From Paenibacillus curdlanolyticus YK9 (GTDB lineage Bacteria; Bacillota; Bacilli; Paenibacillales; Paenibacillaceae), in NCBI RefSeq assembly GCF_000179615.1, contig NZ_AEDD01000010.1, positions 167,501-231,500 of the forward strand: a DNA stretch of 64,000 bases. Reading direction: 5' to 3'. Shown here in pieces: positions 4,157-47,123 of this stretch. How positions within the stretch are numbered: position 1 is the stretch's first letter; every line of letters begins with the position of its first letter. The notes under the pieces were generated by a model that saw only the letters and a program-made list of their open reading frames with translations, did not search any database and was not told where the DNA came from. Both the position numbers and the translations under genes were made by a program.

Positions 4157-4561
4157 CTAATGTACCACCGTCACATGCACATCATAGCGAGGCATATTCT
4201 TCTGAACAATTGCCGTTGCTTCTGACTGCAAGCGTGCCCGCTGCGCTGCATTCAACGATGGATCTGGATCAATCCTTACATGCATGGACGAGCCGTCAAT
4301 CGTCACACGGCTGCGCTGAATTCCTTTCAGCCCGCGAAGCTTCTCGCCTACGAAGTCTGTATCGCTTTTTATCGTCAAGCTGTTCGGAGAGTTCGGCAGG
4401 TTCGGATTCGTGTTGGTTAAACCCATGTACCCGTCATGGCCGTAATTTTGCACCTTCATCTTGTTATCGTACTTGCCGCTTCCGCCGCCGCAGCCAGAAC
4501 CAGTTATCGCGATGCTAATCATCAAAGTGCTGAAGAGTAAATAACGTCTACCATGCAACAT
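4157..4561 (-). CDS. YhcN/YlaJ-type sporulation lipoprotein
   Basis: 134 residues. The N-terminal lipoprotein signal (LLFSTLMISIAITGSGC, lipidation Cys about residue 23) is followed by a Gly/Asn-rich linker. The C-terminal domain (VGEKLRGLKGIQRSRVTIDG ... MHVRIDPDPSLNAAQ ... YDVHVTVVH) resembles the alternating beta/alpha pattern of spore lipoproteins YhcN/YlaJ. These are forespore-expressed inner-membrane lipoproteins linked to outgrowth. The ATG at 4561 is chosen because GAGGGAGG lies 9 bases upstream; the open frame extends further only as an antisense/out-of-frame shadow of rpmE. A SigG-like promoter (4586-4614) precedes it, consistent with forespore expression. Confidence 0.75.
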   Translation of the reverse strand: MLHGRRYLLFSTLMISIAITGSGCGGGSGKYDNKMKVQNYGHDGYMGLTNTNPNLPNSPNSLTIKSDTDFVGEKLRGLKGIQRSRVTIDGSSMHVRIDPDPSLNAAQRARLQSEATAIVQKNMPRYDVHVTVVH

Positions 4562-4564
4562 AAC

Positions 4565-4603
4565 AAAAAACCTCCCTCTAAACCATAGGATGGCTGAGGG
4601 AGG
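4565..4603 (-). terminator. rpmE terminator whose 3' arm is also a Shine-Dalgarno sequence
   Basis: A perfect 8-bp stem, CCTCCCTC (4603-4596) with GAGGGAGG (4578-4571), has a 17-base loop and six T (4570-4565) on the minus strand, 32 bases after the rpmE stop. The 3' arm GAGGGAGG is the ribosome binding site of the lipoprotein gene starting at 4561. Confidence 0.8.
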
Positions 4604-4614
4604 TCGTTGTATTC
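4586..4614 (-). promoter_or_regulatory. SigG-type forespore promoter for the lipoprotein gene
   Basis: GAATA (4614-4610), 17-bp spacer, CATCCTA (4592-4586). This fits the SigG consensus (-35 near TGAATA, -10 CATNNTA). It lies within the rpmE terminator, so a transcript starting near 4579 would keep the Shine-Dalgarno arm but lose its pairing partner. Confidence 0.6.
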
Positions 4615-4634
4615 TGCCAATTTCAAACAGAATA

Positions 4635-4832
4635 TTAGATACCGTATTTCTTTTTGAACTTGTCCACACGGCCGCCGGCATCGATAAATTTCTGTTTGCC
4701 AGTGAAGAACGGGTGGCATACGGAGCAGATCTCGACACGAAGATTCGATTTGATCGAACCAGTCTCGAACGTGTTACCGCAAGCGCACGTTGCCGTTGTT
4801 ACGTGGTACGTCGGATGAATACCTTGTTTCAT
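4635..4832 (-). CDS. rpmE: 50S ribosomal protein L31, zinc-binding type
   Basis: 65 residues starting [10 protein letters not shown]. Cys pairs in CACG and CSVC mark the zinc-containing (C+) paralogue, which in Bacillus is replaced by the zinc-free form under zinc starvation. ATG 4832 is preceded by AAAGAGGTG at good spacing; the longer open frame upstream has no ribosome binding site. No Zur box was recognised upstream. Confidence 0.95.
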
Positions 4833-19705: not shown

Positions 19706-19735
19706 GAATAACGAGCCCTCCCTTTTTCCATACTA
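19706..19735 (+). promoter_or_regulatory. Forespore (SigF/SigG) promoter of the PBP gene
   Basis: GAATA (19706-19710), 18-bp spacer, CATACTA (19729-19735). The -10 is a perfect SigG/SigF match. Bacillus subtilis pbpG, the neighbour of speE there, is forespore expressed. Confidence 0.6.
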
Positions 19736-19774
19736 AGGGATAAGCTAGTTCGATTCCCGAGAGGAAGTTGCTTC

Positions 19775-21961
19775 ATGTTAAAGCGTTGGTTTCACCGTAT
19801 TAGCGGCCGAACGGCCCGTGGCAGCATGTCCAAACCGCCTTTATCGGCTAAATCAAAGCCCACAGCCGCAAAACGGCGTAGGCCACCGATGTTTCCGCTC
19901 ATCGCGGAACGGCTCTGGCCCCGGCTCAGCGGGCGCGCCAGATGGATGCGCCTTGCCAAGCTTGCAGGCGTAAGCGCCGCATTGTTTCTTATCTTGATCG
20001 TTGGAGGCCTGCTCTATCTGCGCGTGCAGTCATTGCCCGTCTCTTCTATTACACAAACGTCCCAGATGCTCGATTTGCAGGGAAACGTGATCGATACTTT
20101 CCATACGAATCAGAACAGGAGCTCCGTACCCCTAAACCGGATTTCTCCGTTCGTCGTTCAAGCAACGCTTGCCATTGAAGACCGTAGGTTCTATGACCAC
20201 GGTGGATTCGATATAAAAGGAATGGCGCGCGCAGTCGTCGTCAATGTCGAGAATCTCTCGACCAAGCAAGGCGCCAGCACGTTAACGCAGCAGCTTGCGC
20301 GTAATTTATATTTGACCCACGAGCGCACTTGGAAACGAAAGCTGAAGGAAGCAATCTACACGACGCAGCTGGAGATGCACTATTCCAAGGACGAGATTCT
20401 TAATATGTATCTGAATCAAATCTATTACGGACACGGCGCCTATGGCATTGAAGCGGCCGCTATGCAGTACTTCGGCAAGCACGCATCTGAGCTTGATCTC
20501 GCGGAAAGCGCACTGCTCGCCGGCATTCCGAAAGGGCCGAAGTATTACTCGCCTTACAATAATATGAAAAATGCGAAGGACCGGCAGCTAACGATCCTCG
20601 ATGCAATGGCGATGGGCGGCTCAATTACGCAAGCGCAGGCAGACACGGCCTATAAGGAGCTGCTGCCCTTCAAGCCGCTGGAGGAATCGCGCGGCGACGG
20701 CTTCGCGCCTTACTTCCGCGACTACATCCGATCCATCGTGGTCGGCGAGCTCGGGTTTGACGAGCGACTGCTGAACGAAGGCGGAATCCGGATCTATACG
20801 ACGCTGGACCCTGAAGCGCAGCGCGCTGCCGAGAAAGCCGTTGCCGATGGCATTCCGAAGGATTCCGAGCAGCAGGCGGCGCTCATCGCGATCGACCCGC
20901 GAAACGGCTATGTTAAAGCGATGGTTGGCGGCCGGGATTATCCGAACAACCAGTATAATCGCGTTTTGACGACCACGCGGCAGCCGGGGTCATCTTTTAA
21001 GCCGATTCTGTACATGACCGCTTTGCAGCAAACCGGCATAACGCCGCTGACCCGCTTCAAGAGCGAGCCAACAACGTTTACGTACGACGACGGACGCCTC
21101 ACTTACCAGCCGCATAACTACAATGATAAGTACATCAATGACTTCATCGATATGCGGCAGGCGATTGCGAGCTCGGACAACATCTACGCTGTCAATACGA
21201 TCATGCAGGTTGGAGCCGACAACGTCATTACAATGGCCCGCAAGCTGGGCATCGACAGCACGATGAAGCCCGTGCCGTCTCTGGCGCTCGGCACGTTCCC
21301 CGTCAGCCCGTTCGAGATGGCCTCCGCCTTCAGCACATTCGCTAACAACGGCGTGCGGGTGAAGCCGATCGCCGTGCTGCGGATTGAGGATCGCGAGGGC
21401 GATCTATTATATGAAGCGAAGCATGAGTCCGAACAAGTCGTGGATGCAGCCCATGCTTATGTGCTGACCAGCTTGATGGAGAGCGTCTTCGACACGGGCG
21501 GCACAGGCCATCGCGTATCTGCGACGATTAACCGCCCGGTCGCTGGCAAGACGGGCACGACGTCATCCGATGCGTGGCTCGTCGGCTACACGCCAGAGCT
21601 GGCGACCGCCGTCTGGGTCGGCTATGACAAAGGCCGACAGCTCACAACGACGGAGGCGCATCGGGCGGCGCCAATCTTCGCAGCCTTCACAGAAGGCGCC
21701 TTGGCGGCAGTTCCGCCAAAAATTTTCCCAATGCCGGAAGGCGTCGTCAGCGCCTATATCGATCCCAAGTCCGGCAAGCTTGCGGGCGCCGGCTGCGAGG
21801 AAGGAAAACGACTGGAGACATTCATCGCTGGCACTCAGCCGCTTGAAACTTGCGACGGCAGCGCGCAGGATGCTGCGAAAGCAGGCGAAGGCACCGGAGA
21901 TCGCCAGGAGCAGCAGCGTAAATCGTGGTGGAACGATTTGAAACGCTGGTGGTCAAACTAG
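19775..21961 (+). CDS. pbpG: Class A penicillin-binding protein (PbpG/PBP1A-like)
   Basis: 728 residues. Cytoplasmic basic segment, one transmembrane helix (about 67-87), GT51 glycosyltransferase (AIEDRRFYDHGGFDIKG, GASTLTQQLARNL, LNQIYYGHGAYGIEAAA), then the transpeptidase with SxxK (PGSSFKP), SxN (SSDN) and KTGT. It polymerises and crosslinks peptidoglycan. Position next to speE-speB is that of Bacillus pbpG, which functions in spore cortex or septal wall synthesis. A forespore-type promoter supports a sporulation role. Confidence 0.92.
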   Translation: MLKRWFHRISGRTARGSMSKPPLSAKSKPTAAKRRRPPMFPLIAERLWPRLSGRARWMRLAKLAGVSAALFLILIVGGLLYLRVQSLPVSSITQTSQMLDLQGNVIDTFHTNQNRSSVPLNRISPFVVQATLAIEDRRFYDHGGFDIKGMARAVVVNVENLSTKQGASTLTQQLARNLYLTHERTWKRKLKEAIYTTQLEMHYSKDEILNMYLNQIYYGHGAYGIEAAAMQYFGKHASELDLAESALLAGIPKGPKYYSPYNNMKNAKDRQLTILDAMAMGGSITQAQADTAYKELLPFKPLEESRGDGFAPYFRDYIRSIVVGELGFDERLLNEGGIRIYTTLDPEAQRAAEKAVADGIPKDSEQQAALIAIDPRNGYVKAMVGGRDYPNNQYNRVLTTTRQPGSSFKPILYMTALQQTGITPLTRFKSEPTTFTYDDGRLTYQPHNYNDKYINDFIDMRQAIASSDNIYAVNTIMQVGADNVITMARKLGIDSTMKPVPSLALGTFPVSPFEMASAFSTFANNGVRVKPIAVLRIEDREGDLLYEAKHESEQVVDAAHAYVLTSLMESVFDTGGTGHRVSATINRPVAGKTGTTSSDAWLVGYTPELATAVWVGYDKGRQLTTTEAHRAAPIFAAFTEGALAAVPPKIFPMPEGVVSAYIDPKSGKLAGAGCEEGKRLETFIAGTQPLETCDGSAQDAAKAGEGTGDRQEQQRKSWWNDLKRWWSN

Positions 21962-45816: not shown

Positions 45817-46992
45817 TTACGCCTGCTCTAGGTTAAGGCGCTGGAGCACATGCTCCAACGTCGCAAGCATCTGATCGATATCCTCGCGCGTAACAATAAG
45901 CGGCGGCATGATCCGAATAACGGAAGGGCTCGGCGAATTGATGAGCAGGCCGCGCGCCATGCAAGCCGCGACGATTTCCTTACCCGAAGGTTCCGGCAAA
46001 TCAAAGCCGAGAAGCAATCCGAGACCGCGAATATTGCGCAGCCCAAACCGAACCCGCCATGCTTGAAGCTTATCTTTCAAATACGCGCCCAGCTCATAGG
46101 CATGACTCGACAGATCTCTGCTTACAATTTCGTCCACGACGGCTCTGCCTACCGCCATGGCCAAAGGCTGCCCGGTGTACGTACCTCCTTGGTCCCCCGC
46201 TTCGAATAAATCGTATTGCGCCTTCGTCAGCATGGCGGAGAGCGGAAATCCGCCGCCGATCCCTTTTCCCAGCGTCATAATATCCGGCTTCACGCCGTAA
46301 TGCTCGTATGCGAACAGCTTCCCCGTCCGGCCAAGGCCCGTTTGAATCTCATCGAAAATCAACAAAATCCCCTGCTCGTCGCACAGCTCGCGAAGCGCAG
46401 CGATGTACGCCGGATCTGCGACGTGCACGCCGCCCTCCCCCTGAACAGGCTCCAGCATAATCGCGCAGGTCCGTTCGCTAACGGCCTGTCTCATAGCATC
46501 GATGTCGTTGAAGGGGACATGCACAAAACCGGGCATTTTGGGCGCAAAAAGCGTCTGCCAATGCGGCTTCCCCGTGGCCGCCATCGTCGCAAGCGTACGG
46601 CCATGGAAGCCGCCCAGCGTCGTAATGATCTCGAATGCGCCATTCCGATGGACGGACCCGAATTTGCGCGCGAGCTTGATTGCACTTTCATTCGCCTCTG
46701 CCCCCGTGCTTCCAAAAAACACGCGATCAAAGCCGGACAATGCAGTCAGCTGCTCCGCAAATGCCAGCATTGGCTTGTTGTAGAAGCCTGGGCTTGCGCA
46801 AACCAGCCGAGCGGATTGCTCAGCCAACGCCTGCTGAACGACAGCAGAGGAATGGCCCAGCGAATTAACGGCCCAGCCTCCGATAAAATCGAGATACTCG
46901 CGCCCTTCCGTGTCCCACATGCGCATCCCTTCCCCATGGGACATAATGGTCTCCGGGCGATTAGCGGTAAATAAAATAGCCTCTTTCGACAT
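45817..46992 (-). CDS. Class III aminotransferase, ArgD-like
   Basis: 391 residues. PLP Lys in MTLGKGIGGGFPLSA, FFGSTGAEANESAIKLAR, and IFDEIQTGLGRTGKLFAYE place it in the acetylornithine/succinylornithine aminotransferase group. Without arginine-biosynthesis neighbours the substrate is uncertain (acetylornithine, ornithine, GABA). ATG 46992 has GAGGAGG upstream. Promoter and inverted repeat lie at 47027-47058. Confidence 0.85.
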   Translation of the reverse strand: MSKEAILFTANRPETIMSHGEGMRMWDTEGREYLDFIGGWAVNSLGHSSAVVQQALAEQSARLVCASPGFYNKPMLAFAEQLTALSGFDRVFFGSTGAEANESAIKLARKFGSVHRNGAFEIITTLGGFHGRTLATMAATGKPHWQTLFAPKMPGFVHVPFNDIDAMRQAVSERTCAIMLEPVQGEGGVHVADPAYIAALRELCDEQGILLIFDEIQTGLGRTGKLFAYEHYGVKPDIMTLGKGIGGGFPLSAMLTKAQYDLFEAGDQGGTYTGQPLAMAVGRAVVDEIVSRDLSSHAYELGAYLKDKLQAWRVRFGLRNIRGLGLLLGFDLPEPSGKEIVAACMARGLLINSPSPSVIRIMPPLIVTREDIDQMLATLEHVLQRLNLEQA

Positions 46993-47026
46993 GTGCAGCA
47001 GTCCTCCTCTTGCATCGATATGATGA

Positions 47027-47058
47027 ATGATTATACGTATATATGAATAATCATGCAA
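47027..47058 (-). promoter_or_regulatory. Promoter with overlapping operator of the aminotransferase gene
   Basis: TTGCAT (47058-47053), 17-bp spacer, TATAAT (47035-47030) on the minus strand. The perfect inverted repeat ATGATTAT-N12-ATAATCAT (47027-47054) covers both boxes. The TGATTATTCA part is reminiscent of ARG boxes. Confidence 0.6.
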
Positions 47059-47085
47059 TACACTGTATAAAAATTGCCCATCTTC

Positions 47086-47123
47086 AAAAAAAGAGGACCG
47101 CCCATTCATGCCAGGCTGTCCTC
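47086..47123 (-). terminator. Terminator of the molybdopterin oxidoreductase gene
   Basis: GAGGAC pairs with GTCCTC around a 19-base loop, followed by seven T on the minus strand. Confidence 0.75.

Follow-up and report, generated by a model that had tools for sequence, protein, structure and literature searches.

The rpmE terminator of Paenibacillus curdlanolyticus YK9 as a probable dual-purpose switch: a SigG-type promoter and a predicted Shine-Dalgarno lock in front of a lipoprotein gene

The rpmE terminator of Paenibacillus curdlanolyticus YK9 is very probably a dual-purpose switch that combines an intrinsic terminator, a SigG promoter and a lock on the Shine-Dalgarno sequence (SD) of the following lipoprotein gene. 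One small DNA stretch probably silences a spore gene during growth and activates it in the developing spore. Computation revealed the parts and showed that they are conserved jointly, that the promoter is missing where the gene is missing and that the hairpin arms covary; it also predicted the exposure of the SD. The locus lies in a stretch of 64,000 nucleotides (contig NZ_AEDD01000010.1, positions 167,501 to 231,500 of the forward strand), analysed at full length and called the window below. On its minus strand, a gene for a radical-SAM protein is followed by rpmE, the lipoprotein gene and the signal recognition particle RNA. rpmE stops at 4635 and the lipoprotein gene starts at 4561; the 73 nt in between (4634-4562) contain, in this order, hairpin I with GAATA in its 3' arm, hairpin II with CATCCTA at its tip and a T6 run, followed by the ATG. 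The features are, in window positions:

4635..4832, minus strand: rpmE, ribosomal protein L31, the upstream gene (PF01197, E 2.8e-32)
4610..4634, minus strand: hairpin I, between rpmE stop and terminator (fold)
4610..4614, minus strand: -35 box GAATA, SigG type (sequence; G-H-A-T-A conserved in 108 distinct leaders)
4569..4605, minus strand: hairpin II, the predicted intrinsic terminator of rpmE (minimum free energy fold; arms covary)
4586..4592, minus strand: -10 box CATCCTA, SigG type, in the tip of hairpin II (sequence; near-invariant in 108 distinct leaders)
4579, minus strand: predicted SigG transcription start, an A, 7 nt past the -10 box (placed by spacing)
4571..4576, minus strand: SD of the lipoprotein gene, GGGAGG, in the 3' arm of hairpin II (sequence and fold)
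4565..4570, minus strand: T6 run 3' of hairpin II (sequence)
4157..4561, minus strand: lipoprotein open reading frame, 134 aa, distant YhcN/YlaJ relative (ATG at 4561)

A first-pass annotation of this DNA had described a SigG-type promoter spanning the end of rpmE. Its boxes and coordinates were right, but the -35 box begins 21 nt past the stop codon. Its placement of the -10 box in the terminator hairpin held, with CATCCTA (4592-4586) at the tip of the stem-loop 4605-4569. SigG promoters have the consensus gHATR at -35 and CATNNTA at -10, 17-18 nt apart. GAATA and CATCCTA, separated by a spacer of 17 nt, fit this consensus, including the degenerate -35 position H, which is never G. A SigG gene is present in the genome (spore_sigG profile above cut-off). 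GHATA-N17/18-CATNNTA occurs upstream of SASP genes, of a gene for a class A penicillin-binding protein (PBP; window 19775), of a gene that we take from its sequence to be TepA-like and of a YetF-like gene. The organism has SigG, and the motif stands in front of known forespore genes, the SASP genes. The promoter of the PBP1A-family PBP gene, GAATA-18-CATACTA (window 19706-19775, plus strand), is likely another forespore promoter. In one SASP gene (L139/L111, G000:C26:69050-69331, minus strand) a unit of about 50-60 bases is repeated between the SigG-like promoter and the start codon.

The motif was counted in the 5.4 Mb genome by a pattern search with the reversed pattern as control. GAATA-N17/18-CATNNTA had 29 matches and the reversed pattern 13, so an isolated match is weak evidence; conservation was therefore used as the main evidence. 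Counts for the variants GTATA and GCATA were no better than the reversed control. A generic promoter and terminator scan detected neither the promoter nor the terminator of the rpmE locus and was given no weight. Of 148 Paenibacillaceae genomes searched at the protein level, 68 encode the lipoprotein, always directly downstream of rpmE (68/68). The composite element was present in all 68 with a spacer of 17-19 nt; 67 matched G[ACT]ATA-N17..19-[ACT]AT[CT]CTA and the remaining genome has GAATG as -35 box. A second collection of named records comprised 80 loci from Paenibacillus, Cohnella, Thermobacillus and others. The element was found in all 80, in 76 by regular expression and in four by hand; these four had both boxes, with altered arms or a contig edge, e.g., CACCTCCTTGG...CATTCTA...CCAAGGAGGTG in L236. 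The counts of 68 and 80 are not independent trials, as the two sets share members and these are related to one another. Carriers of the element include P. terricola and P. xylaniclasticus. A Paenibacillaceae-type lipoprotein locus also occurs on a contig (L223) assigned to a Geminicoccaceae MAG, probably by a binning error.

Among 108 distinct leaders the columns of the -35 box carried 2.0, 0.9, 2.0, 2.0 and 1.9 bits, with A, T or C, and no G in any leader, at the degenerate position, and the -10 box 1.65-2.0 bits per base. The two bases immediately 3' of the -10 box carried only 0.4-0.7 bits. The spacer follows the lineage, mostly 18 nt with GTATA and 17 nt with GAATA, and both lengths are within the tolerance of SigG. 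On these comparative grounds, a promoter at the rpmE terminator is almost certainly real. The case for its assignment to SigG is strong; that it depends on SigG we infer.

The terminator-like hairpin was retained in all 40 Paenibacillaceae rpmE loci without the lipoprotein that were inspected by eye, and the promoter was found in none of them (0/40). One such locus, L069, belongs to a genus in which other genomes carry the lipoprotein. Its hairpin still reads CCTCCCTCAGCCA...TGGCGGGAGGTTTTTTT; the tip has become GCTTCGTC and the -35 box GGATA. The sequences indicate that, on gene loss, the terminator outlived the promoter. The first-pass annotation had proposed a comparison with relatives and had named poorly conserved boxes beside a conserved hairpin as evidence against its reading. 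The boxes proved at least as conserved as the hairpin, and they disappear with the lipoprotein gene while the terminator-like hairpin remains. The observation was confirmed, and the interpretation given with it is supported.

Hairpin II has the form of an intrinsic terminator: a G+C-rich stem (4605-4569) after the rpmE stop, followed by T6. The region folds at -31.9 kcal/mol, compared to -19.2 kcal/mol for shuffled sequences (z -3.8), and the longest T run measures 6-8 in 100 of the 108 leaders. The arms covary: native arms gave -13.7 kcal/mol and arms swapped between loci -12.9 kcal/mol, with none of 200 swaps as low as the native value. Pairing was found in 97 % of cells for the lower stem and in 72 % for the tip with the -10 box, and the box itself is more conserved than the pairing surrounding it. 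By this pattern of bits and pairing, it is the sequence that is maintained at the -10 box and the pairing that is maintained in the lower stem. Hairpin I, whose 3' arm contains the -35 box, has a similar counterpart in 90 of the 108 leaders. Its arms covary as well (native -7.8, swapped -6.75 kcal/mol; 0/200 swaps as low). Its 5' arm falls in the final rpmE codons in some lineages. A role of hairpin I as DNA operator was considered and put aside, since the arm sequences vary while the pairing persists.

Exposure of the SD was expressed as predicted unpaired probability in a long RNA starting upstream and in a short RNA starting about 7 nt past the -10 box. The lipoprotein start is located 7-10 nt past a GGAGG-type SD within the hairpin in 68 of 68 loci (9 nt in the window). 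The predicted probability was about 0.0001 in the long, read-through RNA and 0.35 on average in the short RNA, with the same direction in all 68 loci. At the window locus it rose from about 0.0001 to 0.65 or 0.44, depending on the fold window. The SD GGGAGG (4576-4571) is thus paired in the long RNA, as the first-pass annotation had stated for the 3' arm of the terminator. Its further claim, that the SD is free in an RNA starting near 4579, stood in its on/off logic, but folding leaves the site only partly free: the SD partly re-pairs in the short RNA, and some loci have values below 0.05. Among 45 window genes tested, the SD of the lipoprotein gene was the most occluded. A second apparently hidden SD (window 45819-47109) was dropped, its start codon being probably misassigned. 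By prediction the arrangement is a lock of the T4 gene e type, with the SD paired in the long RNA and the 5' strand absent from the short one. A translational lock on read-through RNA is likely on the basis of these folds, and it may seldom matter if termination is efficient.

Such a lock is not a general property of SigG promoters in P. curdlanolyticus YK9. Folding showed open SDs at a SASP gene, the PBP gene and the TepA-like gene, so that a general rule was rejected and the lock is regarded as a special feature of the rpmE-lipoprotein locus. At the YetF-like gene with GAATA-18-CATCCTA (L126, G000:C36:135870-135899, minus strand) the SD is partly hidden, with predicted unpaired probabilities of 0.06 in the long and 0.81 in the short RNA, perhaps a weaker case of the lock.

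The lipoprotein is only a distant YhcN/YlaJ relative. The window protein scored 15.1 bits against a curated cut-off of 99.75 with the YhcN/YlaJ profiles (TIGR02898, PF09580); its relatives gave E values of 5e-7 (14/40) and 6.5e-6 (10/40) in the YhcN/YlaJ comparison. The sequence has a predicted lipidation site, with C24 invariant and G23 in at least 90 % of 40 sequences, and residues 6-21 form the N-terminal signal helix in the predicted model. The C-terminal part, predicted as alpha-beta-beta-alpha-beta, is similar in Foldseek to a cytosolic domain found in CDF metal transporters (MamM, E 6e-5). This likeness may point to metal binding or to dimerisation; as a match between structures it is not decisive for the function. 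In B. subtilis, YhcN/YlaJ proteins reach high expression in the forespore and have an effect on germination (PMC11841064, PMC8863042, PMC12331253).

During growth, RNA polymerase leaving rpmE would form the full hairpin, and most transcripts would stop at the T run before the lipoprotein ATG. In the remaining read-through RNA, the lipoprotein SD would be locked in the 3' arm. In the forespore, SigG polymerase would bind GAATA-17-CATCCTA and start at about 4579 inside the hairpin. The resulting RNA would neither terminate nor hide the SD because it lacks the 5' arm, and the lipoprotein would be made. For this sequence of events we infer where exactly the RNA begins, how efficiently it terminates after rpmE and how strongly translation is blocked.

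Relatives of the lipoprotein are encoded near rpmE in 25 of 29 loci of other Bacilli families (L146-L174). Where checked, tdk stands directly upstream of the lipoprotein relative; two cases were confirmed by Pfam. In 21 of the 29 loci, pairing covers some four fifths of the SD or more and a CANNNTA box lies at most 26 nt upstream; the hairpin often encloses such a SigG-like -10 box. Exceptions are, e.g., L147, L149, L164 and L166, and some start assignments among these loci are uncertain. In one family, TG[ACT]ATG or CGTATG is followed at 18 nt (counted on the hexamer) by CANACTA or CACAATA, and the whole promoter lies between arms of the type GCCACCTC...GGAGGTGGC. A proper T run is missing after some of these hairpins (L150, L158), which argues that the hiding of the SD is itself selected. 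Tentatively, these loci may reflect a recurrent design in several Bacilli families, a forespore promoter inside an SD-hiding hairpin such that only promoter-born RNA can be translated. In the Paenibacillaceae the hairpin would be the terminator; there, termination, promoter and lock would share the same 50 bp since both boxes lie in covarying hairpins of the upstream transcript.

Promoter and terminator could both be real and their overlap mere compaction, with a purine-rich arm beside the start codon that doubles as SD at little cost and an inconsequential hiding. The gap of 73 nt between the genes, a strong terminator that would suffice by itself and the fact that the short RNA is predicted to re-pair its SD in part agree with this explanation. 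It is nevertheless unlikely, as the hiding recurs behind tdk in other families, partly without a proper T run, while other SigG-type genes of the genome have open SDs.

The remaining alternatives concern the promoter itself. SigF might read it instead of SigG, or both sigma factors might. Their specificities overlap, and the GTATA lineages suit the -35 preference of SigF; CATNNTA is nevertheless the -10 box of SigG, and a GG-rich SigF -10 box is absent. SigF promoters more commonly have a spacing of 15 nt (PMC5942855), compared to 17-18 nt here, and a reading by SigF is quite improbable. It is hardly credible that there is no promoter at all, that CATCCTA is conserved as a loop motif of the RNA to which some factor binds and that the lipoprotein is expressed by read-through from rpmE. 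The -10 box does lie in a hairpin tip and the -35 box within another hairpin. Against an RNA motif, the invariant positions of both boxes are those of a SigG promoter, their distance of 17-18 nt is maintained across lineages with changed spacer, and the SD of the read-through RNA is predicted to be unusable.

As a dual-purpose switch, the rpmE terminator would demonstrate that a developmental gene can directly follow a housekeeping gene without leakage, with insulator, promoter and translational lock as one element. The element is conserved widely enough for comparative reading and short enough for mutational dissection. It is also a warning to annotation pipelines that a terminator can double as a promoter.

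The B. subtilis genes yhcN and ylaJ encode related, forespore-expressed lipoproteins, and we know of no terminator-embedded promoter in front of them. The literature searched, which included few subscription papers, contained no account of a terminator-embedded variant or of the rpmE-lipoprotein locus, and the main text accompanying published Paenibacillus 5'-end data mentions neither rpmE nor sigG (PMC5670726). The working principle is already known. In phage T4, early read-through RNA of gene e (lysozyme), and also of soc, 49 and I-TevI, conceals the start region, while late-promoter RNA lacks the 5' strand of the helix, with a 100-fold effect for gene e (PMC3014915). As predicted for rpmE, the helix that hides the SD has a stage-specific promoter within its 5' strand, and only promoter-born RNA is well translated. 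Unlike the rpmE element, the gene e helix has no described role in terminating an upstream gene, its promoter is read by a phage late sigma factor rather than SigG, and the sequence is unrelated. For sigG of B. subtilis, a big hairpin was proposed to stop translation of spoIIG read-through RNA, and it cannot form in RNA from PsigG (PMC5942855). The developmental programme and the logic against read-through are identical; the differences are that this hairpin belongs to another gene, is not reported to act on the upstream gene as an intrinsic terminator, and has a promoter read by SigF and SigG. What looks new is that this principle is fused with an intrinsic terminator and that the fusion is widely conserved.
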